Positions 10,389 through 33,344 of a DNA stretch of 64,000 nucleotides are shown here, one piece after another (position 1 is the stretch's first letter; the number at the start of each line of letters is the position of its first letter). Source of the DNA: Buxus sempervirens (Eukaryota > Streptophyta > Magnoliopsida > Buxales > Buxaceae); assembly GCA_947561395.2 (NCBI GenBank), contig OX387183.1, forward strand, positions 36,010,853-36,074,852. The letters run 5' to 3'. Position numbers and translations under genes: made by a program. The notes under the pieces were generated by a model. The model worked only from the letters and a program-made list of their open reading frames with translations, made no database searches and was not told where the DNA came from.

Positions 10389-10397
10389 AAATCTTTT
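10389..10397. repeat. 9-bp target-site duplication of the MULE, left copy
   Basis: AAATCTTTT lies immediately before GGGAAAATTATG, the MULE terminus. The same nine bases follow the mirror-image terminus at 33336-33344. A 9-bp duplication is the hallmark of Mutator superfamily insertion. Confidence 0.95.
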
Positions 10398-10945
10398 GGG
10401 AAAATTATGAAAAAGTGATACTTTACAGCCATTATTCGAAAAACATGCCACAAAGATGCGTAATTATAAAAACATGCCACTTTGAGAAATAATTAAGGGA
10501 AGGGGTCATTGCACATTTACCGTATTTGGAATGCCCAAATTACCCCTGAAAAAAAGGGGGGGAAAGAGAGGGAAACACGTGTGTGTTTCCCTCTCGTCTT
10601 GTTTCTCTCCTATGCTGTGCAAAAAATACCAGGGTTGACGAACATCTAGTTCCATGTTTCTTCCTCTCTTTGCCAGCGAACGCGTCTTGTTTCCCCACTA
10701 ACATTTTCTTCGTCTCCAAGGCCGACGAACCCCGACGAACATTACCCCATTCTCCTTCCCCATTGACCTCTTCTTCTCCAAAAAAAACCCCTTGCTATCT
10801 TGACAAAACCCTCTCCTTCCTCCATTCCTCTCTTCGCCGGCAAATGCAGGTTGTTTACCCACTCACATTTTCATCTTCTTTAAGGCCGACGAACGCCGAC
10901 CAACTTTCCCCCATTCTCCTTCCCCATTGACCTCTTCTTCTCCAA
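10398..10945 (+). repeat. Left terminal inverted repeat of the MULE
   Basis: It matches the reverse complement of 32725-33335 from the terminus through landmark blocks: catgccac…gatgcgtaattataaaaacatgcc, taattaagggaaggggtcattgcac, gaaagagagggaaacacg, accagggttgacgaacatctagttcc, and repeated 'ccgacgaa'/'ccattgacctcttcttctcc' units. Differences are scattered substitutions and small indels. In MuDR-type elements the TIRs contain the promoters for the inward-facing genes, and that is the likely role here. Confidence 0.9.
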
Positions 10946-10965
10946 AAACGCCGACCAACTTTCCG

Positions 10966-13771
10966 CCATGCCCTAGCTCGCAGCCATCCCCTAGGTTGCC
11001 GCCGTCGTCCACCTTGCAGTATCATTTGGAGGTATTGTTCCTTCTCTTCCTTGGCACACAAATAAGCTGTTAATGGCATTATTGAAATCGATGTACATGA
11101 GTTGCAACTTTTATATGGTTAGATCAGTTTTGTGTTGAAGGGCGACTTTAGATTGATTAGAGAAAAATATGAATGAACTTTTGTTTTTAGTATGAGTAAT
11201 AGAAATACTTCTCTGATAGGATTGAACCTGAACATGTTCCAAATGCAATAAATGTGATCTAAGAATACCAGTTTTCTTAAGAGTTGGAATGACGCTTTCT
11301 CCTCCACAATTTGACTAAATCCAATTGATGATGCCCCCCCGGCTCCACAGTGCATTTGACAGTGGCATGTTTCGGCTCCATAACTAATGTTAGGATCTGC
11401 ATAGTCATTTTAGGATAATTTCCTCATGCATGCATTATGAGAAAACTAACTTTCTTAATAAAGAGAATTTACTTCAACATGTTAGCAGGTTGTCCTTTGT
11501 GACACATGCTACTGCAGTGTTATTAGATCTTGATTATGTTAGTTGTCTTGCACCATGTGTGCCTCAACTGTTTTTATTTTTTTCTCATTGTTTTCTATAA
11601 GACTTGCATGATTCTTAATAGAAAGTGGTTTCAGTTCAGACAAGAAACTGGTCTCTCTAATGAGAAATTATTTAGAAATCTACAAGTTTCTGGTTAGTTT
11701 ATGATGCTTTTTGCGTTATTACTCAATTTATTTTATTACTGAAACTGCAACTTGAGGGTTGGTTCTTTATGATACGAACTGCAGTTCAACTTCTAGTTGA
11801 CACTAAGAATTCACCTAATGAATATGTAAGATTTTAGACCACATGATTTGGGGCCCCATTATGGAGTGGAGAAAGCTTTCAGTTTGGAAAAGGGGGCTAT
11901 CTCCAAGTCTTCCTAAATATTTTTTGAGGACGCTTTCAATTCTCTTGAAGTGAGGAAACTTGATCTTACTATGAGAGCCAAACTCCAAGTCTTCCTACAA
12001 GTCGGCTCCATATGCTTGTCTATTTTGCTAAGCAGCTGGAAATACCATAACAAAATTTCCTGCTGATTGGGACGAATGGAATTTTAATTAATGTTTGTTC
12101 AAGGCAGAAATGGAATGTACTTCACCAAATCTAGGAGTTTGGTCATGACCTCTTTCTGTGTTCAACAAACACTCCTAGGAAAATGGCTTTGGCACTATGG
12201 TAAGAAGAGTAGTAGTTTGTGGAGAATCACAACTGAGCCAAAATGTGGGAGAAATGATGTTTATTGGACTTCCAGCTCACCCTATTTGTTTCATGAGTTT
12301 AGCTTTGTAATTCTGTTTCCAAGATTTATAATAATTTCTCTGAAGAGGTCAGCTTTCTGGTTGGATATGGGGATCAAGAGCAATTCTGGATGCCTGATAG
12401 AGATTAATTCCTCCTTGATATTTATTAGGTCTTCCCAACAAGAAGCATTTGTCAGGGAAATATTATTGAGGTAAAGGCCTTGTTAACTGTAGGGACTTCA
12501 AGATTTTTTGGATCAATAATGAAGATATATTATTAAATAGAAGAAAACAATATACAGATAGTGCTGCTAGATACAGGCAAAAAGCTGACCATCCCATCAT
12601 CTAATCATGGGCAACTAAGATCATTCCTTTTACAACTCATCTAAAGATGGAATTTAAAATGGGATCTCAGTACTTGTAGCTCCTGCCTCGAACGATTTTT
12701 CTACAAAATCATTTGCCATTCTGGGCAGCTAGTTGAACTAAGTACTCAACTCAAGTGCAAGAATAATTTTAGGAAACAATTGTCTTAACAAAAATACTAA
12801 TTAGAAGTTTACCAACTAATTCCTGCAAAACCATTTTGGAGAAATGGGGAGTCGATTGTGTCTAGAGAATTAGAATTTTAGTGAAACGCTTCATTATGAA
12901 TTGCTTGTTAAATATGTTTTACAAACAGTAAATGTGCATTACTAAATCACTTCTAAGCTCAAGAATCACTTCCAAGGTCCAAATGAAGGGGGGAAGAATT
13001 AGTTCTATGCCTAATAAAAGAACGGAAGGGGAAAGAAACTAAACTAAACTGAAAATCTTGATCTTGAAATTGTAAATTTGATCATACTCAGCTGAATAAA
13101 GGGGGAAGAATTAGTTCCATGGCAGCTTAGGCACTTGTTGGGACACAATAGATATATTGTTTGTTTGTTGAACATTTAATTCCACAATTTTTGTCATCCA
13201 CTGATCATCCCCTTTGGCCATCCAAGAAATGGTGATTGCTTCCTTTGTACTCAAGAAATCTTTGCCTTCCTTATTTCTTTAATCCTATGTTGTAGTGTAG
13301 ATTAATTTTCTGTTCAGTATCTTTGGGTGCAGAAGCCTTTGTTTGACCTAAATAATTGAATTCAATATTTGCGTACTCATGCAAGCATTTCTTTGGTCAT
13401 GAACTGCTGAAGTTGGAATAAATAAATAGTTCAAAGTACTTTTTGTGTATCCTTAACCATCTGATGCTTGCTGCAATTGCCTAGACTATGTTCAAATATA
13501 TAAATTTTTTTGGAACAGACCATGGAAATTGTGCTTTCGAACTTATTTCTTTCTGGTCTCTTTAGAAACAAGTGGAACATTTTAATCTATTCTTAACAAA
13601 ATCCGATTGCACAATTCCACCATTTAACATTTTTGTTCCTGCTTTCTTGAAACTAGCCTATTTTATAGACGGAGATATGTTCTTTTGAGTTTAAACAGGA
13701 ATGAGGCAAGGTGGCATCTTGTATTAAAGTTTAAAATCATATTTTGTGTGTGAATGTTATGCGCCTTAGGC
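10966..13771. other. MULE interior between left TIR and Ulp1 gene, including LINE scraps
   Basis: No intact gene was found. At about 12091-12474 (+) an open frame reads like the ORF2 tail of a plant L1 (LLGKWLWHYGKKSSSLWR, 12172-12225). At 12501-12545 the reverse complement of a LINE 3' tail appears (a T run, then ggatcaataatgaag). The rest (10966-11900, 12600-13700) has no feature I can name, though splice-like cag sites are frequent, so unrecognised exons or introns of the Ulp1 transcript may lie here. Confidence 0.45.
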
Positions 13772-15736
13772 ATGGATTTTGCACGGGAGAAGGAGCGGGC
13801 AGATGATGTCACTGACGTGCCGACAGATATAGATCCGGTAAGGCACTCCATTGCATTATTTCTTTTATTTTACACATTCTTCTATACATCTCCTTTCATC
13901 AATATTTTTTCATTGTCATAGGTATTACGGTGTCATATTGTTCGTATGATCGGGTTTGCCCGTGACTTCACACAGCATTGTACCGACTTTGCCCCCTCTT
14001 TAAGCCACTCCCAGCCACATCCACCTCCAGATGCCGAGCCCGACCGGCCTTCTTGTGATGATGTGCCTCCTCCACCACCTCCAGATGCCGATGGCACGGT
14101 TGATGCACACCCAGATTTTCCATCGCCTCCTTTTGCTGGAAGTGTACCACACAATGAACCCGCGACTACATCTGAGGGTCCAAGTACTATGCAGTCTTGT
14201 CCCAGAGGTAGAGGGAAGCGAGTAAAGCACATTGCACAGAAATTGAGGTCCCCTTTGTCGAGACGCATAGATTCCCCCCATTACATGATCCAGAGACAAA
14301 AGCGTGGATGTATGCCATGACAGGGGGGTCGCCGATGTAAGTATATATCTTCTGTGATTGATAGCAATTAAGAGATTTACACCATTCAATATTGTGTTCA
14401 TAGTTGGTTGTTGTTTTTTTTTTTTTTTTTTTTTTTTTTTGGCCTTATAAGTGGAATTGACGCATGCAGGGAAAAACTTGTTGATTTCGGTGTTTGCTAT
14501 GCGACTCGAGGCGAGCTAGTTGGTCTTTTTCCACGAGGAAGGATTAGCGACCTGGTAAGTTTTTTGTATTGAAAATTGTATCATTTGTTTTAGGTTACAA
14601 AGGTACTTGGATTAGGTTTCTCACTAAGGTGACTATGGAATAGGTTATTCACATGTATGTGATTGCCCGTGTCAAATCTACGCAGGAACATGCATCAACT
14701 ATCCGTCGTCACTATATTACACCCTACACATCTGTATGTATACAGGATTGTATGTTAGGACGCTTACAATAAATAATTATCAATGCATATGGAGTACTAC
14801 AGCAGACTAATATATTATACTTGTGGTTTACAGGGTGCAATCCTAAAAGGAACATTGACTGTAGAAGATGGTGTACAAAGTCAATTTTCACGAGATGTTC
14901 TAGGATGTAGTTTGCTTCGATGTCATATGGTATGATAAACTTTGAATATTTTATTACTCTCTCTTACATAATTATTAACGCCTAGTACACCTTGTATTGT
15001 CATTTGATAGGTTTTCCTACCGATCTTGAGGAGGAGCCATTGGTTCCTGGTTGTTTTGAACATCAAGGAGCAGCGGGTCGAAGTGCTAGATTCGATATCG
15101 AAGAATCGGCCTAATGATTATCATGCCGTATCAGCGAAATTGGTATGTAAAGAACTATATAGTTTCAATGTATTATATAATTTGATATTGAATGGTTCAA
15201 TTTTCATTGCAGACAAAGTTTTTTGCAAAAGTCTTTGAGGAGCTTAAACCTGGCTGTGACAAGAGAGTGCAGGAGTGGTCACTGCTGCCTGTGTCCGTAC
15301 CCTGTCAACATAGTTCGTAAGTTCCCAACTTTATCACTCATATGTTACCATAAGTTACATGAGCATAGATATGATATTGGATAATGCCCTTAGGTTTCTT
15401 ACTTGGTTATTTCCATTGACCCCCAATAACACCCGTATTTTCCAGTTATTTGCCATGTCTACCTTGTCCTGATCTGTTCCATTTGTTGTGTAGTGACGAT
15501 TGTGGTGTATTTGTAATGAAGTTCATGTAATATTGGGATGGGCATCAATTGTCGACTAGGTTTGTGCAGGCAAGTATATATTTTCCTATGCAACTTGATG
15601 TGGTTAAGACTTACACATTTTTTTTATAGCAAGTGTTTCATTTAAATTGTAATAGGAAAATATTGGACACTTTCAGAAGGAATTGGTAGCATACCTGATG
15701 CTCCACCCTGCAAATGAAATCAAGTACCCGTACTAA
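13772..15736 (+). pseudogene. Ulp1-like (C48) SUMO-type cysteine protease gene of the MULE, one premature stop
   Basis: Nine exons join at consensus sites: 13772-13837, 13922-14336, 14470-14554, 14644-14733, 14834-14929, 15011-15142, 15213-15316, 15494-15569 (GC donor) and 15656-15736. Catalytic elements are in order: His in SHWFLVV, Asp in VEVLDS, Gln in VPCQ and Cys in DDCGVFVMKF. The product ends KYPY-stop just before a solo LTR. Family role (known): Ulp1 proteases cleave SUMO or related modifiers, and MULE versions are of unclear use. Defects: an in-frame TAA at 15528-15530 between KFM and YWDG, and a reading-frame change around 14205-14265 in the proline-rich second exon. Exons 1-2 parallel the last exons of the minus-strand mobile-domain gene (…IDP, then a helical segment), so the gene may have lost an N-terminal mobile domain. 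Confidence 0.85.
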
Positions 15737-15744
15737 TTGAGAAG

Positions 15745-15749
15745 CTTAA
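15745..15749. repeat. 5-bp target duplication of the family B solo LTR (left)
   Basis: CTTAA sits just before TGTAATGCCC. The same five bases follow the LTR end at 18682-18686. It lies nine bases after the Ulp1 stop codon, within the presumed 3' UTR. Confidence 0.9.
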
Positions 15750-18681
15750 TGTAATGCCCCGAACCCGGGTCTATGGAAAACAAGCACCAAACCCGAATCC
15801 GAAGTGATACTGGGCCCAAAGCTACTAATTACCAAACATTTAAATTCAACAAATTCCATTAATTATCAGAGTGCGGAAAATTAAAACATTAATTTCATCA
15901 ATATGCGTGGCTAACTATAACCATCAAACTAACTCATCAATATAAATTCATAAATTTGGTAAATGGGTTTTCTAACACACTTTCTCTCATATTCAATTAA
16001 ATCATAAACTATCTATCAAGTTACATCTATATCAACCTCTAATAGAAAGATCTAAACTAAATAAGAAAGATCCTCAGCTCAGTAATCTGCAACTTCCCCT
16101 AGAGTCAACCCCAAGGACGCTCTCACGTGGAACAGCTGAAAAATAAGATAAGGAAGTAGGGTGAGATACAACTATCTCAGTGGGTAACACATGCATGCTA
16201 GAAACAGTTTTTATATATAAAAGTAATCATTCATGCACGATAAAACAATCGGGTAGTCACGGTCGATAATAAGAACGAGTAATCATCATACGAAACCAAC
16301 ATTTATTCAGTGCTTGAGATAAAAAGAGTTTATTGTGTAACCTTCATTTCAATTAGAAAGGCAACGTATTATAAATCTCATCTAAAGGATTTTCCAATTC
16401 ACTGCAAGTATTGTTTTCCTACAATAATTCTATAATTAATTCATGGCTCATTTATATTCTATTTTAGAGTCAATCAAATCAAGTCACAGCTAAACCGTTT
16501 AATCAAACTCTTCTGATTCAAATGTAGATCATGTCATTCAAAATTAATAGTAAATCTCAATCTGATAACAACATTCTCACATGTAAGATGCAATCACGTA
16601 GTAATCACATCTACCCTACATGAGGTCTCTCCCGCAGGAGTCATCACATCTCACCCGCAGATGGTCACATCTCACCCGCAGGTGGTAATCACATATATCT
16701 CCCTTGTGGGATGCAATCACATCGTGATTACATCTCCCCCACAAGAGGTCACATCTCTCCCACAGGAGGTCACATATCTCCCATGTGGGATGCAATCCAA
16801 TCAGGATCACAGCTCCTCTAACAGGAGGTCTCATCTCACCCGCAGGTGGTCACATATCTCCCCTGTGGGATGCAATCCAATCAGGATCACATCTCCCCCA
16901 ACAGGAGGTCTCATCTCACCCGCAAGTGGTCACATATACATCTCTCTTGTGGGATGCAATCACATCATGAATACATCTCCCCCACAAGAGGTCTCTCCCG
17001 CAGGAGTTACACATCTCACCCGCAGGTGGTCTCATATCTCATCCGCAGATGGTACAATCTCTTATAGCCATCATGGCATTCAGTCCACAGTCCAATTATA
17101 TTTTGAGAAGAAATTTACCTATATAGAATCCTTGTAATCATTTCAAGTGAATTTGATCCTCTTTAAACCCCAAATTGTACTAAATCATAGAACAATGTGG
17201 TTAAATATCTAATATGAACTTTTTAGTGTAATTGGCCTTCAGAGACACCTTAAGAATAATCTTAGAGAAGTGTTACAAATGGTGGAAATCAAATATCCTA
17301 TTTTATAATGATTTGGAACTAAGAATGTCATAAAGTTCTCAAAATATATTTTGGATGAGTGGAATAGTCTTAGGATCCCTAATAAGGTTACCATACCAAA
17401 AATCAATCGATTCTGAAATAAAAAGTTTCGGACCCCAAAAATATTCTAAGTCTGGTTTAAAACGTTGACGTTTTGATATATAATTTTTCTAGACAAATCT
17501 ACAAGGAGTTTCGGGCTCAAATTTTGGTTGTAGTCTATTGAAGGGTAAACACATCTCCTAGAATTTTATGGGCTCCTGTATCACTCATCTGGGTATCAAA
17601 CCCAAAACAGGCTTTTTGATAAAAACCGGGAAAACTGGAAATTTAGGCATGAGCTGGAAAGTTGACTTTTTATTGGTTGGGAATTGGACCTTGGAAGTAT
17701 TTTTATTGGTTCCAAATGGGGGGTAAAACCTTATTTACATGTAAAGACTTAAGTAAATTGAGCAATAAATACACAGGACATTTACTTAAATGTCTTTCAG
17801 GTAAATAAGGGTGCTGTGTAGGGAGGCTCAGGTTATTTGGAAAAGGGTTGGAGAAGAAAAGGGGATGAAAAACTGTCGAAATTGCATTTTTTTTGTTAGA
17901 GCGCCTAGGATCGCCTAGGCGGTCAAAGGTCAGCGGTAGTTAGTTTTTGATCGCCAACGATACGTCTTCAAGCGATCTTCGGCGGTCTCAAATTTTACAC
18001 TAGCGCTGAGGATCGCCGAGCGCAGAGAGGTAGGCGGTCTCCCAAAAACGAACATACAATGTTTAAAAATCTGATTTTTCATGTCCAGGATGATTCTAAC
18101 ATAATTATATGATTGATATCAAGCTAAATACATGTATATACAACACTAAAACATGCAACACAATCGATTAACCTCCAGAACACAAAACGAAACGAAAATC
18201 GGTGCTACCTACCTCTGTTCATGCGTTTCACTCCTCCTCCGAACAGCGACTAACACAGACGCCAAGCAATGCTCAGGAGATGAAAACTCAAGCCTTTCTC
18301 TCTCTCCCTTCTTCTTCTTCTTCTCTTCTTCTTTCGGTAGTTCCCAGTCGCTCTTTGGTCTTGCGGCTGTTGAATACCAAACAAATACACAAAGTATTCC
18401 CAGCGTCTCTGTTAGGGCTAATACCATACTTATTTATATATATGATTCCACACAACACACTTGCATCAAACACAACGCACTCGCCCAATCAAAATACAAC
18501 TATTTTAAAATTTTAATCTTACCGCGATGACTCACAATCAAATGGTCTAATCTACGCCAAACTCCTGATCCCCACTAATTATAATATCACCTACAATAAG
18601 ATATTATTTCCATCCATAATAATCCTCAAAAATATTAATTATTATTTTATTTTAATATTTGGGAAAATTCGAGGTTTTACA
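15750..18681 (+). mobile_element. Complete family B solo LTR, 2932 bp
   Basis: It starts TGTAATGCCCCGAACCCGGG and ends GAGGTTTTACA, so it has TG…CA termini, and it is flanked by a perfect CTTAA duplication. No internal retroelement coding is present, so it is a solo LTR left by LTR-LTR recombination. It carries a minisatellite (16605-17060). Around 17880-18060 are gatcgcc/aggcggt palindromic words. The 18150-18430 part contains several short open frames in different frames, which I take as chance. It inserted into the MULE after the MULE's own insertion or during its history. Confidence 0.92.
16605..17060 (+). repeat. Degenerate minisatellite in the family B solo LTR
   Basis: Short units such as cacatctcacccgcaggtggt and cacatatctcccctgtggga alternate. 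They form higher-order units of roughly 100-110 bases that each include gtgggatgcaatc. Several units contain short inverted words (cctgtggga/tcccacagg). Open frames here on both strands simply reflect the repeat. Confidence 0.85.
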
Positions 18682-18686: not shown

Positions 18687-18714
18687 ACCTTCCTGAGAAT
18701 CTTTTCTTTCTCCA

Positions 18715-18905
18715 GGTCCTGCTCAAGAACGTGTAGGTGTAATGGGGATTTTTGATACAGCAGCAAGAGCATTAAGACCTGGTGGTGTTCTTTGTAACAT
18801 GGCAGAAAGTATGTGGCTCCATACACACCTTATTAAAGATATGATATCTATTTGCCGTGAAACATTCAAATATGTTCATTCGTTGCTTGGGCAAGTGTTC
18901 CAACA
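18715..18905 (+). pseudogene. Captured exon of spermine/spermidine synthase
   Basis: After an intron-like acceptor (ttttctttctccag) the reading GPAQERVG…[20 protein letters not shown] followed by [15 protein letters not shown] matches the conserved core of plant spermidine/spermine synthases, which transfer an aminopropyl group from decarboxylated SAM to polyamines. After ETFK the frame slips: the expected AWASVP appears one base out of register and then decays. Only this exon with part of the upstream intron is present, so it is a genomic fragment and not a retrocopy. It lies between the solo LTR and the minisatellite inside the MULE, consistent with gene capture. Confidence 0.82.
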
Positions 18906-19119: not shown

Positions 19120-19945
19120 TGATCTCAAAACTAGCTCGTGTCCAACGGATCCTTGGCTCGAGTCCTCGTAAAATAGCTCGAGTCCCACGTATCCTTAGCT
19201 CTAGTCCCACGTATGATAGCTCAAGTCCCACGTATCCTTAGCTCGAGTCCCACTTCTCCTTAGTCCCATGTAAAATAGCTCGACTCCTACGTATACTTAG
19301 CTCGAGTCCCACGTAAAATAGCTCGAGTCTCGCGTATCCTTAGCTCGAGTCCCGCGTAAAATAGCTCGAGTCCTACGTATCCTTAGCTCGAGTCCCACGT
19401 ATACTTAGCTCGAGTCCCGCCTAAAATAACTCGAGTCCCGTGCATCCTTAGCTCGAGTCCCACGTAAAATGGCTAGAATCCCATGTAAAATATCTTGAGT
19501 CCCACTTAAAATAGCTCGAGTCCCACGTATCCTTAACTCGAGTCCCACGTAAAACAGCTTGAGTCCCACTTAAAATAGCTCGAGTCCCGCGTATCCTTAG
19601 CTCGAGTCCCGCGTAAAATAGCTCGAGTCCCACGTATCCTTAGCTCGAGTCCCATGTAAGATAGGTCGAGTCCAACGTATCCTTAGCTCGAGTCCCACGT
19701 AAAATAACTCGAGTCCCGCGTATCCTTAGCTCGAGTCCCACGTAAAATAGCTCGAGTCCCACATATACTTAGCTCGAGTCCCACTTATCCTTTGCTCGAG
19801 TCTCGCGTAAAATAGCTCAAGTCCCACGTATCCTTAGCTCGAGTCCCATGTAAGATAGCTCCAACGTATCCTTAGCTCGAGTCCTGCGTAAAATAACTCG
19901 AGTCCTGCGCATCGTTAGCTCGAGTCCCACGTAAAATACTACTAA
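19120..19945 (+). repeat. Minisatellite of about 21-22 bp units, often alternating
   Basis: Dozens of units of the form tagctcgagtcccacgta, followed alternately by tcct or aaaa, form a dimer of about 43 bases. Units vary by a few substitutions (gcg for acg, ctt for gta). The core contains CTCGAG (XhoI-type) palindromes. Open frames across it (for example on the minus strand) are repetitive and not genes. Confidence 0.93.
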
Positions 19946-20117: not shown

Positions 20118-20816
20118 ATGCGCTACACTCTGTGTGAAGGAAGAATGGAAGTTTCGCCAAAGGCTACCGATCCCCACGCTCAAGTCCCATGTTCATACGG
20201 GAAAGGGATGCTTAAAAGAAAACTCTCCCACACCTCACGTAATCCAGGGCGCTATTTTTTCACTTGTCCATCGTCTGTAAATATGCACTTTTACGAATCT
20301 GGCCATTCAACTATTATAAGACTGTCTAAATTAAATGCATTATTTCTTACAGGGCAATGGTGGGAATGGATGTGGGTATTTTGTTTGGTGCGATGAGTTA
20401 TTTCTGTGTGAATGTGGGAGGGGACCATGTCGTGTGTTAACCGTAAAAACTCCAACAAACAAAGGGAGAAGATTTTACCAATGTCCTTTTGAAGTATGTG
20501 TGAAGTTGTATAGCACTCGAATACGTTCCTCCCACATGAGATATTTTGCAAAATAGGGACTTCCTAATTGAGCTTCATGTCATTGTATTTCCAGGGCGAA
20601 CAAAGTTGCCATTTCTTCTCCTGGTTGAACGAAGGTGGGGTAGAAAAGGGTGAATCGTCGAATTCATGCGATGCAGAAAACACTGAACAAAGACAGCCAA
20701 GGGCATGGGAACTAGAACGACGGCTATTGCAGGAGGAGCGTGACCATGCGAGAAGGAAGTCCGACATATACCGTGAGTTGCTTCACGACATTGACAAAGT
20801 TAAACTGGACGAATGA
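20118..20816 (+). CDS. Double GRF-type zinc-finger protein, 173 aa, carried inside the MULE
   Basis: Three exons, 20118-20276, 20353-20493 and 20595-20816, join in phase 0 with GT-AG borders and no stop. GRF finger 1 is CSYGKGMLKRKLSHTSRNPG, then RYFFTCPSS, then GCGYFVWCDE after the first intron. Finger 2 is CECGRGPCRVLT…NKGRRFYQCPFE, then QSCHFFSWLNE after the second intron. The tail (about residues 125-173) is charged and helical (WELERRLLQEERDHARRKSD), likely a coiled coil. GRF fingers bind single-stranded nucleic acid in proteins such as topoisomerase 3 and APEX2/NEIL3; small plant GRF proteins are mostly uncharacterised. Met at 20118 is chosen as the first in-frame Met; Met 20145 is an alternative. 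Finger 1 has Cys-Ser-Tyr where Cys-x-Cys is usual, so its first ligand pair may be altered. Confidence 0.78.
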
Positions 20817-21359
20817 GTTGGTTTACCAGTGATTAAGATGCATGTTTGGTGTGGTTATCGTTGAGTTTTGGTTAAAAAGTGCTACTAAAAGTAGTTTTAT
20901 TTGGTCAGACAATTTCCTAGTAAATATTATTGTAATATGTAACTAAAGACCATGTATGAGAACCTAAAAAGTAGTTTTATTTCCATTTTCATGAAAAAGA
21001 ACATTATGTTTGATACAATGTTCACATTCACTAAAGGTTTTATGAAAAAGAACTTACATCATATAGTCCCCAAAAAATAGGAATAAAGGAAAAAGTGAAA
21101 ATGGAGGCCTCAATCACTCTTCATTAGTTAACTGTAATTAATGAGTAGAGCTGGTGATAAATCTTATACTTGTTGAAATTACGAGGTGCCTATTAACCAT
21201 GGGTGTAAACTATTTCCCAACATTTAGGAAGCAAAAACTAGAGCACATGAAGCAAGAACTGCCAACAGAACATCTAGTATTTCACAAAGCTAGTGTTCTT
21301 CTGAGCCTTTCCCAAAATTGTGAAAACGCTACCCCTGTATAAGTCCAGTGTTCTTCTGA
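20817..21359. other. No recognised gene
   Basis: This is the downstream flank of the GRF gene, AT-rich. A 20-base phrase, agtgttcttctgagcctttc, occurs at 21291 and again near 21349, marking a small local duplication at the edge of the anthranilate synthase fragment. Confidence 0.4.
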
Positions 21360-21425
21360 GCCTTTCATCAGGATGACTGTCAGCAACAATACCGGCTCCA
21401 CTTTGAATGTAAGCAATCCATTCTC
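21360..21425 (-). pseudogene. Captured C-terminal fragment of anthranilate synthase alpha subunit
   Basis: The minus strand reads WIAYIQSGAGIVADSHPDE (from about 21419), matching the conserved W-x-A-x-x-Q-x-GAGIVADS-x-P-x-x-E motif of anthranilate synthase component I (chorismate to anthranilate, tryptophan pathway, plastid). After this the reading diverges from the family. The VTGEL…SGAPK exon lies about 460 bases upstream in gene order (21887-21973), but the intervening family exons are missing. Confidence 0.7.
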
Positions 21426-21886
21426 AACGCGTAATTAGGTCCCTGTATCACAATTGAAGCTCACATTCATAAATGCAACAGGTACCACCCAAAAAAAAAA
21501 AAACAAAGAAAGTGTTTCTTTTACCATCTTAGGATCTCACAATCTCAATACATAACACCAATTTTCAAACACCAAACAATGGAAAACTAGGATCTCGTTC
21601 AATGGAACCGAAATCTTGATGAGTCCCACCCGTTCAATATCAACAGGAAAGGACTTCCGAATGAGTAATTGATCATATGAACATAAATATTTCAAAGAAT
21701 CATTTTTATTCAAACTAATGAATTCTCTACAAGTCAGCCAACTTAATCCTAGCATTATAATACCTCGGGGCTAAAGAAACAAAAATCAAAGATGTGTGCC
21801 CATTCATAGGTAAGCCAATTCAACTTTTGGACAAATACCACTTGGAGATAGGACATTTAGTCAAGAATAAATCACAGACTACAAAC

Positions 21887-21973
21887 CTTTGGTGCTCCAC
21901 TAACTGTTCCCACAGACAAAGCTGCACGCAAGGCATCCCAGCTAGTAAGATGATCAAGCAACTCCCCTGTAAC
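21887..21973 (-). pseudogene. Captured exon of anthranilate synthase alpha subunit
   Basis: This is a clean 87-base exon between a cag acceptor and a GTTTGT donor. The 29 residues read [20 protein letters not shown] then VGTVSGAPK, which is a signature block of plant anthranilate synthase alpha (chorismate-binding fold). It has no stop. With the fragment at 21360 it shows that a piece of a plant gene, introns included, resides in the MULE on the minus strand. Confidence 0.85.
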
Positions 21974-22197: not shown

Positions 22198-22659
22198 TGT
22201 AAGCACCTCATTTTTGCACCCCCGGAAATGCAAACCCTAGTTGAAAAGTCAAACCCCGAGGGGTGAAAAGTTGACTTTTTGATCAAGTGATAATTGACCG
22301 CCTTGCTTTATCTCAGTGGATAGAAAATCCCAACATGGTTCCAACGCAACTGAGTTTGCTGGAATCGAAGTCCGGATAAAGGATCTATGAGCCGGTCAAA
22401 CTTGAAGGGGAGCAGAAAGTTGACTTTTTGCACAACCCCGAATCAACTGCTTAACCCTACGCCAATGGATAGAGGGCTCTGATACGATTCTAACGCAATT
22501 GAGTTCGCCTGAATCAGAGTTCGGATGAAGAAGATGTAAGCAGTTGAAGTTCTAGGGCAGCAGTGCTGGAAAACTACACGTGGCAAAAGTCTGCACACGT
22601 GACAAGCAGCAGAGCAAAAAGGTTTCAGGGATTAAATCTGTAATTACCCAAATCAATGA

Positions 22660-22890
22660 AAAATATCTCAATGGTAAAGCTGCAGATATCCAAGGGTATC
22701 AGGGACTAGATCCATAAGTATCCAAACTTGAGAAAATATCCCAGGGACCAATCTGTAAATATCCAAAAGTATCAGGGACTAAATATGTAAATATCCAAAG
22801 TATCAAGGACTAAATCTGTAAATATCCAAAAGTATCAGGGACTAAATCCGTAAATATCCAAAGTATCAGGGACCAATCCACAAATACCGA
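22660..22890 (+). repeat. Tandem 35-40 bp repeats in the family A solo LTR
   Basis: Units of the form agtatcagggactaaatctgtaa followed by atatccaa recur about six times with substitutions. They precede the CT microsatellite. Confidence 0.8.
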
Positions 22891-22919
22891 GATTTGCTCA
22901 TGATTGATGTCTCCTATGG

Positions 22920-22943
22920 GTATGCATGGGCATCATCCATGCA

Positions 22944-22981
<38 letters not shown>

Positions 22982-23120
22982 CCACATGGGCATGCATCAT
23001 CCTCATTCATGCATGCATCTCTCTCTCTCTCTCTCCCACATGGGCATACATCATCATCCATGCATGCAACACTATCTCTCTCTCTCTCTCTCCCATGATG
23101 GTTGTCCCCCATGCATGCAT
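22920..23120 (+). repeat. Compound microsatellite: CATGCATG words and (CT)n runs
   Basis: Three blocks each join catgcatgc or similar, a (ct)6-13 run, and cccacatgggcat. The layout suggests tandem duplication of a microsatellite-bearing unit of about 60 bases. The Leu-Ser-rich open frames here come from the CT runs. Confidence 0.9.
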
Positions 23121-25612
23121 GCACATGACATTGCCACATGATAAAAGTCCTCCCAATCCCATACGTGAAGGGTCTCTCATTTTTTGGTTGCTGGAGTTTT
23201 TTCAAGAGAGCTTTCTCTTTCTCCATCTCCCCAAAAAACCCTAGCCTAAAGCCTATCTTGACCCTCCATCCTCCATCCTTTCTTCATCTCCATCACTTAA
23301 ACACTTAGAGGAGAAGAGAAGCTTGTTGGTGGTGTTTGAAGGTGCTGCTCCAGCTGCTGCTCAGCCTCAAAGAAGTGTCCCTACACTTCTCCAGAGCCAA
23401 AGAACCCCAGGTGAGGTTCCATATCACGTTGTATTACACATATATTTTAATGGGGATTTTCTAAAGATTTTCTAACCTTGTTTTCTTCCCTAGCATAAGC
23501 CTGATTTTAATGCCTATTGGCATGGTTTTTTCTTTTGTTTTGGTGATAACATGGAGGTCTCCAAGGGTGAGGGAGACCCCATGCATGATTCCATGGGTGT
23601 GTGAGCAATCTCTCCCCATTTCTCATGGCTTTTAGGGGCTGTCGGCCAGCATTCCCATCTCACTGGTTTGAAGAAGGAGCTTGTTCCTTCTTGATTTTCA
23701 ATCTTTTGTATTCCTTGTGTAACCCCCCTTTACCCTTTCTTTAAATGTTTTTCTTAAGCTAGATAGATTAATATAAATATGCTATAAATTTGTATGGGAT
23801 GCATGTTGAATTTCATATTCTTTATTTAGTTTGCTTGTGCATGGTTTAACTATTATTTTAAGCATATATAAAGTTCACTCATCATTTATTAGTACTAGGA
23901 ACATGCATATGAATTGAGCAATGGTTTTCTTGTTAGTATCTTGCATATTCTTGCCTTACCATATTTTTACCTTATATCGGTCATTGTTTGCCTATGAGAA
24001 ATCAGTCCCCTTTTTTCTTCATGTATAAGATTACATGACCATGCATTAGGAAAATACTTTAGCTATTTCTCCTTTCATTCATTATTTAGTTGTAAATTGT
24101 ACATGAGTACTTACTTCGGCTTTTAGGCACAGAAAAGCTCACACACACACATACTTTTGAAGTGAAGCATATCTCTTTGAATCCATGTCATTAACTCTTA
24201 TTCATATACCTTGGTTCTTGATTTTTGGAGTGAAGGAATGACCAAAACAGGGACTCTTGTGTTCCTGTTTCTTCACCAAATCTGGTTCAAAGCAAAGAGA
24301 AGCTGAAGCCCTAGCCTTCTCCTTGGATCTTGATTTTAAACCCCCAAAAAGAAACCCATGAGCTTCTGTCGAAACCACTGGAAGCCCACACAGGGGCCCA
24401 CACAATTGCTGGAACATCTCTAAGAGCCCAGAAATCCGAACCCAAAGTAGAAATCTCAAAAATCCTGTTTTTGAGCTGATCTGACAACTCAGGTCGGATT
24501 AGCAGAGGTTTTTATTTGTAGCCGACACTTTAGGTCGGCTACACTGCTGAAATGCCCATTGCTGCTGTTTTGCGATCTTTTGCTATTCTTGTGCCTTGTT
24601 GATCAATCCGAACGAACCAAAAGGGTTACCGGGTCAACCGGAGACCCAAGATGGACCATGGACTGACCCAGTCCAATTTGATTTCCGGTGGGCCTTCCAA
24701 CGGGGCCCACCAAGCCCGACAAACTTACTTTTGCTAAATCAAGATAACCTAACTGAATGAGTGGGCCACACCATTGGAGGCCCACCAAAAGCCCAACTTG
24801 GGAAGCATGATGCTTAGATTTAGGCATGGTTTGGCCGAGACCACGGGTAGGGCCTATCGGGCCCACTAAGCCCATTGAACCTAACCAAGGTTAAGGTTTC
24901 AAAGCCTTAACTCAAGAAGCCTTAGGCTTTCAAGCCCAAGCCCAAGTAAAGGGCCCCAAGCCCAATGCCTGGCCCATTTTGGCACAGTTAATCAAGATAA
25001 TCTCAAAATCACTTGGCAACCAACTGTGTGGCCCACTCAAGGGCCCACAAAGCAATCCCGGCCCACTTTGGCATGAAAATCCACTTAAATAATCAAACTT
25101 GAATTTCAAAATAAAATCAATTCATTGAACCAAAGCCCAAAGGGCCTCGCAGGCTTAGACCGAGGCCCACCAGGGGACACGTGGGCTCAACCAAACCCAC
25201 CAAGGAATCCGCGGGCCTTCTAACGGGGCCCGCCCAATCAGACTCATCTCATCTTTAACTAAAAAGATAAAATCAAGTAAAGGGACCCACACCGCTTTGA
25301 CGGTCCCGCCAGACTTAACCAAATTGAATGCTGGAATAGGAATCGGGTGAATGAGAGACCAAAGTTGACTCAAACTAGGGAAACCCATGGGACCCGTCTT
25401 TTGACGGGGCGGACCGGGGTGTCTATGGACTTCCCCGGATCGTAACCGAGAACTTGCTTAGAATCTCAAGTCACAAACCAAGCCATAATAGACAAAAATA
25501 GGCAACCAGGTGTTTGCCTACACCCCATCAGGCAGTGGCGACTCCAAACAAATCCCGAGGCACGCATCATTTTGCATGCGCCTCGTCGTGTGACCAAAAT
25601 CAGGTGCGCACA

Positions 25613-26189: not shown

Positions 26190-26322
26190 CTCTTCATCAA
26201 ACAATACGATCGCATGCTGTAAAGCCTCTGTTATATATGAAGGGAACAATTCATTGTGATTTGCAGCCTTTACTCCCAAACGATAACTTGATGGTGGTAA
26301 AGGTGTTACATATTACAGATGT
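26190..26322 (-). pseudogene. Captured exon resembling a plant FAD-dependent oxidoreductase
   Basis: The minus strand reads PSSYRLGVKAANHNELFPSY, then ITEALQHAIVLFDEE, then a possible GT donor. This resembles the C-terminal part of plastid FAD/NAD(P)-binding oxidoreductases, which have a 'SYRLGVK…LFP…I..AL..SI..FD' stretch. I recognise it only from memory of the family, so the identity is tentative. Its exon shape and setting next to the acetyl-CoA acetyltransferase fragment fit gene capture by the MULE. Confidence 0.45.
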
Positions 26323-26425: not shown

Positions 26426-26564
26426 CTGCTACACTCTTGTTATTCTATGCTGATCTGCACATAGTTCAGCACAAACTCCCATGCCAAAATCATTATAAAC
26501 ATCCCACAAGCCATCTTTAACCATCCCATCGATAACAGTATCATGCCCAAGTCGAGAGCCCTTT
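26426..26564 (-). pseudogene. Captured exon of acetyl-CoA C-acetyltransferase (thiolase)
   Basis: Between a ctgtag acceptor and a CAG/GTTTTT donor the minus strand reads KGSRLGHDTVIDGMVKDGLW, then DVYNDFGMGVCAELCADQHR, then ITRV-stop-Q. This is a signature segment of cytosolic acetoacetyl-CoA thiolase (two acetyl-CoA to acetoacetyl-CoA, first step of the mevalonate route). The expected acidic residues after ITR are replaced by Val and a TAG stop, so the fragment is decayed. It is the same strand as the anthranilate synthase pieces. Confidence 0.85.
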
Positions 26565-26906: not shown

Positions 26907-28652
26907 CTACAAGACTTGGTTCTCGGAACCAGGTCTAGTGCGGAACATACCATCTTGCCCACCCATTTGGGATACATAAGCGATAGCCATCTCATACTCA
27001 TCCTGCAATATGCGCAACGATGCACGCATGCGATCCAATGCTTGTTGGGATACCTAACAACAAATTATTCATAATTTAGAACATTGTAAAACATGTCAAC
27101 AACGCCGACGACCCACGTAGGGGTGACAAGTCTTACTGGATCAATCCCTGGAATAGGTCCTTCATCAACATCTCTAACTCCTTCCTCAGAACGCACCATG
27201 AGTGGCACCACCTGCATCGACTACACTATATTAATAGCTCATTCACAGTAGACCATGTAGAATATGAATGGGCATAGAAAATGATGTTTTACCTCCCCAT
27301 TGCCATAGCCGCCCGCTGATTTTTCAGCCTTCTCCCGTGACTTCACACGATCGTCGGGCCACCACCCCAGACGTGGCGTTGGACGACTTGATTCAATATC
27401 ACCAAGCCATACAACTTCATAGTAGAAAAGCTGAAACATTAAGAAAATATGGGACATCATGGTGTTTTCAGCATATACTTGTCGCATTGAACCAATACAA
27501 CCAAAAACAAATCAGGGACAAACATACCTGTAAAAATAGGAGGCATCCACCAATGTTGGTTTTTTTTTCTCCCGATATATCACAATTTCATTAAACAACA
27601 CATCAAGTACAAAAGCAGCCCAATTGTACTGCCCAACCCTACTAATATTAGCTACGGCATGTAGAAAATGAAGCTTCACATGTGGATTCGAACCCGGGCA
27701 TAACAAACATCCCACAAGAAATAGTACAAATGCCCGTTGAAAGGCATGGGCGGACCCTAGAGTGTCCAATCTGGACTCTATATCGTTTAGTGCTATGCCA
27801 TGCCTATCAAAAGTAAAGCTTGCACGAAGCTGGGCAAGCTGCTCACTGGGACCATCTATGACAACCTTGGGGCCTTCGCTCCTAAGGCCCAAGATGGTAC
27901 TTACAGCGGCGGGGGTAATGGGGACAACCGAGGGACCAATCCTCAAACTACGACTATCTACATCAATGTGGTCTACTAACCAGGCGCAAAGCTTCACACA
28001 TAGGGATGTGCAACGCATCTGGAGAAGAGAACCAAATCCTATCCAACAACTACACGTCGCTGGTCCTCGTCAAGCAAAGTCACAAAATGCACAAATCGCT
28101 TTGGGGAGCATCTTGTTCCCAGAGACACCTACACTTAGATAAACATGTGTTAGTATAATGCAACTGCATACAAAACATTCATAATGTTCAAGAAATCAAG
28201 TTATACCTTTCCTCTTATTTTTCCTATTGGAGTCGGAGTCGCTACCAACCACTCTGTCATTCATTCATTGTATAATTCTTTATACTTCTGCTTTGCACTA
28301 TCATCCATCGCTTTCCATAGCCCTTGTGCCTCCTACGTGATCTACAAAATAGTGATGCCATTGTATTTATTACAATTGACACTATAAACATTATCAATTG
28401 ATATATAGTACTTTAACCAACTCACCGTCGTGACATTTATGGAAGACCTACTGCCCCGGCACGTTTGAAGGTACTCATTCCTGTAAGAAGTAAGCATAAC
28501 ATTAGAAATCCCCTTAGTTCGGGTTTGGAGAGTAAAACAACAATGCTTTATCAGTTTATACTTCATCACCTGAATATGAGGAAGGCGTTGGCAGGACGCG
28601 ATGGGCCACTAGAAGAACTAGCGGACACGACATTCTTCTTGTTCTTACCCAT
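26907..28652 (-). pseudogene. MULE gene joining an HMG-box-like N-terminus to a transposon mobile domain
   Basis: Exons on the minus strand: 28652-28570, 28480-28426, 28341-28207, 28128-27528, about 27440-27290, 27211-27137 and 27053-26907 (stop TAG). Exons 1-3 read MGKNKK…SRPANAFLIFR, then NEYLQTCRG…INVTT, then IT-stop-EAQGLWKAMDDSAKQKYK. The PxNAFxxFR…W…K.KY layout is that of an HMG box. Exon 4 holds a domain (RFVHFVTLLDEDQRR … LCAWLVDHIDVDSRSLRIG … FVLDVLFNEI) of the kind linked to Ulp1-bearing MULEs and plant mobile-domain proteins. Exons 6-7 read VVPLMVRSEEGVRDVD…IDP and VSQQALDRMRASLRIL…. Defects: TAG and TGA stops in exon 3, a one-base slip in exon 4 near 28030, and an unclear exon 4-5 junction. 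The fusion itself is inferred from exon order and phase; exons 1-3 and 6-7 are in phase. Confidence 0.7.
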
Positions 28653-29104
28653 TATTGAGTTGCAACTAACTAGATTGAGGCTCACGAATACTAAAACCAA
28701 AGAAGGTTAGTAGTAATTACATACCAGGTAAGATTACAAACACAAACAGTCATAGTAAGGCAACATTACAACTACCCAAAGTCATAATAAACACACAAAA
28801 AATGTTTCACAATGCCACTAAAAAACAACCAACAACAAAGTAAATATGTTTCACAACCAACATGTTTCACAATGTTACTAACACGACTATGTGGCAAACC
28901 ACTTCTTCATAAAATAGTAATAAAAATAAGAGATCGTGGGGTTGTTGATCAAATGTTGCCACATACTACAACCCCCAGCAAAACACATCACGCCAACCTG
29001 CAAATTAGACGTCGGTAAGTCAAAGTTAATTACAGCAAGAACTTAGATGCATGAATAAATGTAAGGTGGACTACAACAACCTGCACATTATACCATGCCA
29101 GTCT
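28653..29104. other. Spacer between the two minus-strand MULE genes
   Basis: No recognised coding. It contains the transposase 3' flank and the upstream region of the HMG-box gene, with repeated caacatgtttcacaatg words (about 28810-28880). Confidence 0.4.
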
Positions 29105-31394
29105 CTATATTGAAGCTCCGCAACTTGCTCGGTTGTGTCCAACACCCTTGCATCTGGAACAATGAACCTGTCGCTTGTCTTGGAATTGCGATTCAATGCG
29201 CTTCTGCTTAGGGCGCCCTGGACGTCTTGCTGTCTTTGGTGGGAACGAAATAGATGGGGTTTCACTTGAATCTGCTATGGAAACCATGCCGATGTCCTCA
29301 ACCATGGGGAAGTCATGTGTTAACACAACATGCATCAATTCGTCGTATATCAACCCTTGCGTTGCCTTGTGGTAGCATAGGTCGACAAAGTCATACACAT
29401 TGAGCCTTACCAAGTTCTGGACGGCACATGCGTGTGCACAAGGAATGCCCACCATCTGCCACTGTTTGCACATACACTCACAACGGATTAAATGCACCAT
29501 GATATATGTTTCATCACCTCTAACTTCGTATTCGTGTTGCCCACATTGAATGACACCCAGCCCCAATGCTCTAGTGAGATTCTCCTAAATCTTGGCATCA
29601 ATTCGACCACCGACATTGAACGCCCACGTGTCAATACAACTCTTCTTCCTCACCAATAGCTCTGTCAGCTTTACTCGATGTGCATTAATAAACCACATTA
29701 CAAGCAATTTCCTTTCTTCCACCATCCAATCATTGAATGACTCCGCTAAATTTGAATTCAGCTTATCCCACCGTTTCATAGGGAACAATGAATTTGCCCA
29801 ATGTTGGGGCCCATTTCTCCTCACCCAGTCAGCTAGGTCAGGTGCATATTCATGCATGGCAAACAATGGCTTATCGTAGTCCCAAGGGAGCCTTGCGTAA
29901 GTAATATCATCAAGTAACCGTAAGGCAAATTTCTTTCCCTCCCTCAAATGAAAGGATCCGACGAATTTACTAAAGTTTTCCTTCAGATGTCGAAGACAAT
30001 GAGAGTGGTTCCTAGCGCCAAAGGTAGAACTTACTGTAGTTATAATGCTTTGATTCCTGTCACTTACAATGACTAAATCCTCTCTGGCACCTATGGATGA
30101 CTTAAGAAGTTATAGAAACCACATCCAATCCTCATTATTCTCAGCACTAACAATTGCAAAGGCAATTGAAAACATGCCGTCATCAGCATTGAGGGCTGTA
30201 GCAGAAAGCAACGTGACCTGGTATGGCCCGCTAAGATGACTTCCATCAATGAACAGTAGTGGTCTGCAACCGACCGCAAATCCCCTCAAGGAACAACCAT
30301 AAGCAATAAACAATTGCTTAAATTTTCCATCTTCACTTGTTAACCAACTTGCCACTGTGCCAGGATTAGTCTCTTGCAGCCATTCACACATCCATGGGAT
30401 GAACTTATAAGACTCCTCCACAATACCATCTATCCTCTGTTTCGCCTTTTCATTGCTCCTCCGACATTGATGATATGTCAATGGCATTGCATGATCATGA
30501 TAAAAGTCCTTGCCAATTTGTCGTGGCAAGTAACTTGGAGTGTTCCTAATTGTCTTCTCAATCACACCCGAAAGCCACTTCGTTCTCACAACCAGTTTCA
30601 TAGAAAATTGGTCTTGGGCTGAGTGTCTATGCTCCTTCTCAAACTTCATCACCCTCATAAAACTCGTATCCCTCACACGTCTTGCAGTTACCTTCCAAGG
30701 ACAATCCGTGCCTGCACAACGGACACTAATATATGCTAGACAATTTTTTTTCATCACATATTCAAACCTATTGGCAATGGCATGCTTGTACACTGCTTTT
30801 CTAAACTCCTCAAGGGTCTTAAATATCTGGTCGACCTCAGTAATTGCATCCTGCCATAGACTAGATACAAGCGGACCTCTGCTGAATTCAGTGCAACTTT
30901 CAAGAAGCGGAGTCTCCCAATCCTCTACTTCATCGTCATTGCACGGAAGTACAGAGTGACCACTTAAAGGTACACTCGTCCTAAAATTACAAAATATATG
31001 ACTATCACTACATGCAATATGGAGAAAACGTAATCCCATGTACGGTTAATGAAAATTACCTCCGACAAGTGTCTCGTTCTTGTGATGATCCCTCATCATA
31101 ATAGACATAAATGTTGGCGCAACCCTCGTTGTAGCGAAATAGGTACGATAATGCATCTTGATCAGTGAGTGCCAGTAGAACGCTCTTGTCAAACTTGACT
31201 GAGTACTTCATACTCACACTCACCGGGGATATATTCAATAACCGACAAACAGCGTCAACTACCTCAGTATAATTCATGTTGCTATTTAGATCGATACCCT
31301 TACTACTTTCCCCACTATACCCCATTGACCCATCTTCCTTGGTGATTATTTGTCCTCCAATGTGAAAAAAACAGAATAGAATCGTTGCTGACAT
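29105..31394 (-). pseudogene. MURA-type MULE transposase, two in-frame stops
   Basis: Exon 1 (31394-31060) encodes a PB1-like N-terminal region (GGQIITKEDGSMGYSGESSK … LTDQDALSYL … IYVYYDEG). After an 80-base GT-AG intron, exon 2 (30980-29105) holds the MuDR DNA-binding region (FKTLEEFRKAVYKHAIANRF … CPWKVTARRV), the DDE core (first Asp in LLFIDGSHL, second in LVIVSDRNQS), a SWIM finger (CMCKQWQMVGIPCAHA) and a C-terminal CCHC knuckle (CSRCKGVGHNRASC). The joined frame is about 736 codons, normal for MURA transposases. Stops interrupt it at 30112-30110 (TAA after WMWFL) and 29587-29585 (TAG before ENLTRA); otherwise it is one frame. Function of intact relatives: binding TIRs and catalysing excision and insertion in the nucleus. 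Its promoter probably lies in the right TIR. Confidence 0.92.
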
Positions 31395-32724
31395 TATGCA
31401 CTGTCCACCGAATTGAATTCAATTCTTCATATCAAAATATTATGGAAAAAATCTAATTTGAAATATTACAACATACTAAAATAAATATGGCTCACAAGAT
31501 AAGAATACATAGACAGATCAGGTATGTCAGTCAATTCCCCTCAAATCCCCTCAAATTAATTGAAGACAGATGTTGGGGAAGACTTTAGACAAAAAAAGAT
31601 TGTAAATAAAAAAAAAGGTAATGCTTTAGACTAACACCATGGTCTGAACTTCACAATAGTTAGGATGCATTCACCTAGAGGCACCTTGGCACCTAGAGGC
31701 ACTTTGGCACCTTTGCCTTCATATACAAAGATTACCTCTTCATAATACTTCAAGAAGACTCAGAACGTCAAAAATATACTTCAAAAGCACTTCTATTCCA
31801 ATATAATAACACTTAATGGATCTCTTCTTATCCTAGTAACCACCAATAGAAATATCCCGATTATGGGAATGGCTACTAAACCTCAACATTAACCAAAACC
31901 TAGTAAATCAATAATCAAAGAAGGCAATTGACACAGTTTTTTCTACCAAGGCAACACTAACCACCGTCTACATCAAGACAACCCACAAACATCTCTACAA
32001 CAACAAGGATTAGAACTTCTTAACATCATGTACAAACTACAATGACCAAATAATTCACTGACAAATGAACGAAAAAAATTGACTCCTGTGAGCTTCTCAT
32101 TAAATTGCCCATTTCAACTGAGACCTGTGAGCTTCTCATTAAAGCAGTCACAGAATAGAACACAGAAACACCCTTAAACAGAAGATTTCCAAACGCCCCA
32201 GTTAAAATACCAAATAAACGAAGAAATAAGCCGAAATTCAAATACCAATAAACTCAAGAACCCCATTTCGTTAAGGCAAACAACTCATATTCAAATTCAA
32301 GCCTTTTTTGCAACAAGATTACCATTTAAATAGGTGGAAATATGCAAATGTGCAAATTCAAATTCAATTAAATATGCAAATGTTTTAGGGAAAATCAAAT
32401 TCAAGGAACGCACTCGGCAGCTACCTGGTCGCCGGCGGCAGCATTCCCTATGGCGACGAACAGCAACTTCGATGAAACAACAAGGTTGCCCACAGCAACA
32501 CTCCACACAGCAACAAAAACCAACTTCAATGAAACAGCAAGGTCATTGACGGCAACACTCCCACGGCGATAAACTTCAACCGCAGTGGCTCTCCAACGAC
32601 CAATGCCTCAATGTGTGCAAACAGAAAAGGGGTTTCGATTATAGAGGGTTAATGAACGATGGAGAGGGAAAAATGAGCGAAACAAATGGAGGAGGAGAGG
32701 GTTTCGTCCAGATAACAAGGGGGT
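31395..32724. other. MULE interior between the transposase and the right TIR
   Basis: This should be the 5' leader/promoter side of the transposase. No open frame is convincing. Small repeats are visible: cacctagaggca twice at about 31672-31700, ctgtgagcttctcattaaa twice at about 32086-32140, and a caac/gatgaaacaacaaggt repeat at about 32455-32550. Confidence 0.4.
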
Positions 32725-33335
32725 TTTTGGAGAAGAAGAGGTCAATGGGGAAGGAGAATGGGAGAAAGTTGGTCGGCGTTCGTCGGCCTTGAAGAAAACG
32801 AAAATGTGAGTGGGGAAACAACCTGCATTCGTCGGCGAAGAGAGGAATGGGGGAAGGAGAGGGTTTCGTCTAAATAGCAAAGGGTCTTTTGGAGAAGAAG
32901 ACGTCAATGGGGAAGGATAATGGGGTAATTTTCGTCGGAGTTCATCGGCCTTGGAGACGAAGAAAATGTTGGTGGGGAACAAGACACGTTCATTGGCGAA
33001 GAGAGGAAGAAACAGGGAACTAGATGTTCGTCAACCCTGGTATTTTCACACAGCAGAGGAGAGAAACAGGACGAGAGGGAAACACGCACGTGTTTCCCTC
33101 TCTTTCACCCTTTTATTCAGGGGTAATTTGGGCATTCCAAATACGTAAATGTGCAATGACGTGCGTGTTTCCCTCTCTTTCCCCCTTTTATTCAGGGGTA
33201 ATTTGGGTATTCCAAATACGTAAATGTGCAATGACCCCTTCCCTTAATTATTTCTCAAAAGTGGCATGTTTTTATAATTACGCATCTTTATGGCATGTTG
33301 TTGGTAGTAAAGTAGCACTTTTTCATAATTTTCCC
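32725..33335 (-). repeat. Right terminal inverted repeat of the MULE
   Basis: Reverse complement of the left TIR, ending …CATAATTTTCCC. It is longer because a 75-base segment is tandemly duplicated: tgtttccctctcttt…gtgcaatgac starts at 33091 and again at 33166. The inner part holds the ccattgacctcttcttctcc and gccgacgaa repeats seen on the left. Confidence 0.9.
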
Positions 33336-33344
33336 AAATCTTTT
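33336..33344. repeat. 9-bp target-site duplication of the MULE, right copy
   Basis: AAATCTTTT, identical to 10389-10397, directly after the MULE terminus CCC. Confidence 0.95.

Follow-up and report, generated by a model that had tools for sequence, protein, structure and literature searches.

We analysed a 64,000-nucleotide stretch of the Buxus sempervirens genome (assembly GCA_947561395.2, contig OX387183.1, positions 36,010,853 to 36,074,852 of the forward strand; GC content 38.9%), here called the window, and describe in it a large Mutator-like element (MULE) that is probably the remnant of a once-autonomous DNA transposon. The whole element spans 22,938 bp (10398-33335) and is bounded by two copies of AAATCTTTT. 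Between long terminal inverted repeats (TIRs) it holds a transposase gene and three further genes, which encode a Ulp1-like protease, a protein with an HMG box and a plant mobile domain (PMD), and a double GRF zinc-finger protein, together with two nested stretches that resemble long terminal repeats (LTRs). An earlier note on this DNA had named these genes and LTRs; it made no mention of the putative fragments of host enzyme genes, the minisatellite and the relic of a long interspersed nuclear element (LINE) that the element also contains (Table 1).

Ends and target-site duplication

The element begins and ends with GGGAAAATTATG / CATAATTTTCCC, and these termini, with the perfect 9-bp target-site duplication that flanks them, lie exactly where the earlier note had placed them; a duplication of 8-11 bp is one of the marks by which MULEs are recognised. 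On the plus strand of the window AAATCTTTT occurs four times (10389, 22181, 33336 and 56470) and on the minus strand once. Since only about 0.95 occurrences are expected per strand and the chance of a match at one fixed position is 1.5e-5, its presence exactly at both ends is not a matter of chance. The copy at 22181 was considered as the trace of another insertion and was taken to be a chance occurrence, about one per strand being expected.

The terminal inverted repeats, which had been put at 550-610 bp, measure 555 bp on the left and 616 bp on the right; long TIRs are another of the marks of MULEs. When the left arm is aligned with the reverse complement of the right, 504 of 541 columns are identical (93.2%), with 37 mismatches and 89 gap columns, and the score of 814 compares with a maximum of -115.5 among 50 shuffles. 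Identity is even from tip to base (87/92, 95/98, 89/98, 90/98, 90/100 and 53/55 in successive 100-base bins of the left arm); past the first 100 bases, where the earlier note would have taken a fall to background as a sign against the element, it stays at about 90-97% per bin. The main inverted match found by BLASTN stops at 10952/32720, and a control alignment of the next 600 inner bases was uninformative, cheap gaps having given unrelated sequence 314/386 columns. Most of the difference in length between the arms comes from an extra 75-bp tandem copy in the right one (33084-33158/33159-33233), and both arms share an internal duplication with a spacing of 162-164 bp. At plant mutation rates, and supposing that the arms were identical at insertion, their 6.8% difference would correspond, as a rough figure only, to a few million years.

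Table 1. Features of the Buxus element and its flanking duplications, in window positions.
Feature	Positions	Strand	Remarks
Left target-site duplication AAATCTTTT	10389..10397		Read directly; chance computed
Left terminal inverted repeat	10398..10952	+	Direct reading, BLASTN, alignment
Degenerate LINE relic, left spacer	12163..12389	+	Pieces 12163-12267 and 12348-12389; tblastn with the window's own LINE open reading frame, E 3.6e-4
Ulp1-like (C48) protease gene	13772..15736	+	Several exons by model
Nested stretch 1, putative solo LTR	15750..18681		2,932 bp; duplication CTTAA
Spermidine synthase exon, host fragment	18715..18870	+	AG acceptor before; frameshifted continuation to ~18910
Minisatellite MINISATELLITE	19132..19938	+	~37 units of 22 bp with CTCGAGTCC core, upstream of GRF gene
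Double GRF zinc-finger gene	20145..20816	+	Modelled exons 20145-20276, 20353-20493, 20595-20816
Chorismate-binding enzyme, two exons, probable host fragment	21343..21973	-	First exon edged by AG and GT
Nested stretch 2, putative solo LTR	22198..25612		3,415 bp; duplication GCTAG
C-terminal piece of FAD-dependent protein, weak host fragment	26190..26285	-	Pfam
Thiolase (acetyl-CoA acetyltransferase) exon, host fragment	26435..26563	-	AG acceptor before
HMG-box + PMD (DUF1985-like) gene	26907..28652	-	Several exons by model
MULE transposase gene	29105..31394	-	N-terminal exon, DBD_Tnp_Mut, MULE DDE domain, SWIM, zinc-knuckle-like tail
Right terminal inverted repeat	32720..33335	-	With extra tandem copy
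Right target-site duplication AAATCTTTT	33336..33344		Read directly; chance computed

The four genes of the element

The transposase, together with the target-site duplication and the TIRs, bears out the assignment to the Mutator-like elements. It is of the MURA/MULE DDE type, though the gene is broken: in Pfam the main frame matches DBD_Tnp_Mut (5.6e-16) and SWIM (1.6e-4), and the MULE domain appears in two halves (5.6e-6 and 2.6e-4) that each fall just below the cut-off because a stop codon splits the domain. Of 5408 candidate proteins, 48 are relatives at E <= 0.001; the best of them comes from Vitis rotundifolia, with 45% identity over 589 columns, nearly the whole length, and the N-terminal exon (31379-31089) is matched by relatives as well. 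The presumed DDE aspartates are present. Two nonsense codons (TAA 30110-30112 and TAG 29585-29587) sit where relatives carry ordinary residues, in an alignment that included 15 of the 48, and with them the gene is not the intact transposase that marks an autonomous element.

The second gene read from the right encodes the HMG box and the plant mobile domain. The HMG_box family is matched at 4.5e-11 by the HMG part alone and at 6.7e-10 by the whole joined model, a value that, like those of the other joined models given below, rests on typed exon joins. The single PMD exon matches its family at 3.8e-7, below the curated cut-off, and its resemblance to DUF1985 (E 0.11) is far below it. The gene is interrupted by two nonsense codons (28333-28335, 28261-28263) and, near 28040, by a frameshift. 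A word-based search of 5.8 billion proteins, which finds only sequences of similar length with exact shared words and misses distant relatives, gave 5508 candidates, of which a single one was a relative at E <= 0.001. This predicted protein from another contig, P0049, aligns to the PMD part with 35% identity over 195 columns and itself carries matches to HMG_box_2 (3.6e-4), PMD (2.8e-4) and DUF1985 (3.4e-4), none of which reaches its cut-off. It supports the order of HMG box followed by PMD in our model, and the joins of the HMG exons are not covered by it residue by residue. A structure prediction from P0049 and the window exon (two sequences) was poor (predicted local distance difference test, pLDDT, 44.6). 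In the open PMC literature, which leaves subscription papers uncovered, nothing was found for 'plant mobile domain' together with 'HMG-box', nor for 'HMG-box' with 'mutator-like elements', 'transposase' and 'plant'; PMC8616336, which had come up as a possible source for the former link, was discarded, as the letters 'hmg' in it come from a journal DOI among its references.

On the left, the Ulp1-like gene matches Peptidase_C48 at 1.5e-4 in a whole-frame scan and at 7.9e-14 on the joined exon model, and the His, Asp, Gln and Cys that we take to form the active site are all present. A nonsense codon (TAA 15528-15530) breaks it, as does what looks like a frameshift around 14250-14320. The double GRF gene yields a model of 164 aa with GT-AG introns and no internal stop, in which Pfam recognises two GRF fingers at 3e-23. 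One of the 48 transposase relatives, P0027 of Rhododendron vialii, carries a GRF finger ahead of its transposase in the same predicted protein, a single hint that such fingers may belong to this kind of element.

All four genes that the earlier note had listed are thus present, but three of them carry nonsense codons and only the GRF model is open. The convergent arrangement of MuDR that it ascribed to them holds for the directions of the genes, as Ulp1 and double GRF run inward from the left (plus strand) and transposase and HMG-PMD from the right (minus strand); the likeness to MuDR proper, in which the second gene, mudrB, converges with mudrA, is to be read as one of gene direction only.

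Nested elements, host gene fragments and minisatellite

Both nested stretches start with TG, end with CA and are flanked by 5-bp duplications of their own. The self-comparison of the window revealed no terminal direct repeats within them, and three open reading frames (ORFs) in them matched no Pfam family. Judged by these features and not by comparison with a repeat library, they are read as solo LTRs. Without them and one duplication each the element would measure 16,581 bp, which agrees with the previous estimate of about 16.6 kb. Elsewhere in the window, inverted partial relatives of the two stretches lie at 3289-3479 (77% to the second) and 410-535 (about 82% to the first), an indication that each of the two LTR families recurs in the host genome.

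Three stretches were scanned in six frames against Pfam (18 frames; 11000-15752, 18687-22194 and 25612-29101; E <= 0.1), with one or two chance rows to be expected; in 29102-32719, the TIRs and both LTRs the coverage was that of selected ORFs. Besides the genes described above, four pieces resemble host enzyme genes. The assignment is firm for spermidine synthase, whose fragment matches solved spermidine synthases in the Protein Data Bank (PDB) at 1e-12, and for thiolase (Thiolase_N 4e-6 in the whole-frame scan; 2.7e-10 to a thiolase in the PDB). It is fair for the chorismate-binding enzyme, presumably anthranilate synthase alpha, the two exons of which (21973-21887 and 21417-21343) follow each other in gene order at profile positions 158-186 and 233-251, and weak for the flavin adenine dinucleotide (FAD)-dependent protein. 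An AG acceptor stands ahead of the spermidine synthase exon, of the thiolase exon and of the first chorismate exon, which also has a GT donor behind it. These splice edges indicate that the pieces were taken from genomic DNA and not from messenger RNA.

The minisatellite is confined to one array. Its 9-mer core CTCGAGTCC recurs nowhere else in the window on either strand, shorter words of the core occur a few times, and the window holds no Rfam match at gathering scores.

Flanking sequence

Outside the element the window contains a plant LINE ORF2 in one open frame of 1238 aa (48616-52329, minus strand) with endonuclease, reverse transcriptase and zf-RVT, a DUF4283 ORF upstream of it (53341-55257) and a second reverse-transcriptase ORF (42316-43599, plus strand; RVT_1 1.5e-21). 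A retroviral-type aspartyl protease match at 59975-60937 (plus strand; 1e-4) is probably a remnant of an LTR retroelement. Closer by, a Myb/SANT-like DNA-binding domain (35090-35254, plus strand; 1.7e-5) lies about 1.75 kb to the right of the element; it may belong to a host gene or to a PIF/Harbinger ORF1, and the insertion may have occurred near the start of a gene. The 4.2 kb to the left gave no Pfam match at E <= 0.01. Repeats in the flanks include a 123-bp stretch doubled head to tail with 100% identity (4064-4307), probably a recent duplication, an inverted match between 8963-9392 and 62068-62496 (441 columns, 73%), and an imperfect tandem cluster at 55359-55800 whose best pair is 90% identical over 178 bp.

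Origin and fate of the element

Taken together, the ends and the gene content point to a once-autonomous plant Mutator-like DNA transposon that is now dead or dependent on relatives, a reading that we would hold with a probability of just under nine in ten. The MURA-like transposase would have bound the ~0.6-kb TIRs and moved the element by cut-and-paste, leaving the 9-bp duplication. By analogy with known MULEs, the TIRs would contain promoters for inward transcription, the right one serving transposase and HMG-PMD and the left one Ulp1 and GRF. More speculatively, the likeliest targets of the Ulp1 protease and the HMG-PMD protein would be chromatin or SUMO-based silencing of the element. Again by analogy with known MULEs, the element would have acquired the fragments of host enzyme genes in its middle at the DNA level, intron edges included. 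After insertion two LTR retrotransposons would have entered and recombined to solo LTRs, while the genes decayed.

Several observations weigh against this picture. The exon models were built from the sequence alone, and none of the 1114 candidates that a word-based search, blind to distant relatives, brought up for the Ulp1 model reached E <= 0.001. Three of the host fragments stay below their Pfam cut-offs: Spermine_synth reaches 2e-4 in the whole-frame scan (21.4 bits), Chorismate_bind 0.018 (0.004 and 0.013 after trimming) and FAD-depend_C 0.043 (9.4e-4 trimmed), where the whole-frame values are the fairer ones, re-scanning of trimmed fragments being flattering. The chorismate stretch has no relative in the PDB, its one match having an E of 0.55. 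Moreover, the host fragments could in part be later insertions and not cargo that moved with the element.

A transposase-bearing Pack-MULE, with accessory genes that are captured host genes without any role in transposition, is an alternative for which the host enzyme fragments speak, as they suggest that this element was able to capture; MULE-encoded PMDs have been read as host-derived captures (PMC5418596). We consider it unlikely, though the best of the alternatives, as the double GRF gene has stayed open while the others decayed, and the succession of HMG box and PMD recurs in P0049 (if only with Pfam scores below the cut-offs), which speaks for an older protein that has been kept.

What the accessory genes might do can be framed by VANC, the sequence-specific anti-silencing protein of the Arabidopsis VANDAL MULEs, whose target motifs grow as tandem repeats (PMC5735166), and by the Ulp1-carrying VANC genes (KIU) that hypomethylate related elements according to the review PMC13317346. 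We speculate that the HMG-PMD protein could be a new class of VANC-like transposon anti-silencing factor, with its HMG box binding the 22-bp CTCGAGTCC array and the Ulp1-like protease helping to remove silencing. This is a doubtful proposal: the similarity to DUF1985 is marginal, and the confinement of the repeat to one array counts against it because the 9-mer core, unlike the targets of VANC, does not recur.

Less probable than the Pack-MULE reading is a composite origin, in which a short MULE with only a transposase received everything else by later nested insertion and the large unit never moved. The two LTRs and the LINE relic show that nesting took place here, and the spermidine synthase fragment is frameshifted; on the other hand, Ulp1 has been reported in MULEs of Arabidopsis, melon, rice and grapevine (PMC13317346, PMC2528002). 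The element's own genes point inward from both ends and have domains known from transposons, and in P0027 a GRF finger and a related MULE transposase share one predicted protein. Finally, a functional autonomous element would fit the perfect duplication, the 93% identical TIRs and the DDE aspartates that we presume to be catalytic, but the nonsense codons (two in the transposase, one in Ulp1, two in HMG-PMD) and apparent frameshifts rule this out for the present copy, barring assembly errors at those sites.

Comparison with known systems

The earlier note regarded the size as exceptional for a MULE. At 16.58 kb the element is indeed large, but of the 35 grapevine families in Table 4 of PMC2528002, one of which has no length, three are at least 14 kb long (17.7, 16.2 and 14.4 kb). 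The two largest, Mutavine-1 (Mudravi1) at 17.7 kb and Mutavine-18 at 16.2 kb, are likewise MuDR-like plant MULEs, and the closest transposase to ours (45%) also comes from Vitis. Mutavine-18 is marked there as including a ULP-1 region, like the Ulp1 gene here, with shorter TIRs (230-263 bp); for neither family do sections 8 and 10 of that paper mention an HMG-box or GRF gene, and no target-site duplication is listed. As to the TIRs, a survey gives a range of 14-500 bp for the MULEs that it covers (PMC6446971), and that of Mutavine-7 is 710 bp (PMC2528002).

An Ulp1-like protease gene opposite the transposase is known from KAONASHI (KI) of Arabidopsis and the ULP MULEs of melon, rice and grapevine (PMC2528002, PMC13317346), and the Buxus element shares this arrangement, albeit with a broken gene. 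KI-MULEs are described as lacking TIRs, whereas this element has TIRs of ~0.6 kb, with HMG-PMD encoded by a further gene. VANDAL elements (PMC5735166) combine a transposase with accessory genes and with tandem repeats in non-coding DNA, as seen here, and their VANC carries DUF1985 (Fig. 5 legend), which the PMD-like domain resembles very weakly; the Buxus element differs in its HMG box and in a repeat core that is found in one array instead of several non-coding regions. The barley element Abermu (PMC9168764) has extra genes in both directions too. Two of its three ORFs are such extras, of unknown function; it is about half the size of the present element, and with its >8 kb and three ORFs it was called unusual.

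Like this element, Pack-MULEs (PMC8903248, PMC6431247) have captured parts of host genes enclosed by MULE TIRs. They are non-autonomous and mostly of 1-2 kb, and the set to which PMC6431247 refers has none >7 kb, whereas the Buxus element encodes a transposase of its own. Plant mobile domains are known from MULEs of grasses and Amborella (PMC5418596), where transposase and PMD form one fused protein; the Buxus element has its PMD in another gene, joined to an HMG box. In Arabidopsis, MAIL1 and MAIN are PMD proteins with a role in silencing, and captured PMDs have been suggested, as a speculation, to be a means by which MULEs counter it (PMC5418596).

ULP-bearing MULEs, the capture of gene fragments and MULEs of 14-18 kb are already published, and the size is no record; what is most novel is the HMG-PMD gene and the combination of genes. 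Autonomous MULEs in the papers cited have one to three genes each, and the Buxus element, with four of its own as well as host fragments, would join the autonomous and the Pack-MULE habits in one element. With its DNA-binding HMG box, the PMD protein encoded by this MULE is a concrete and testable candidate for an anti-silencing role.

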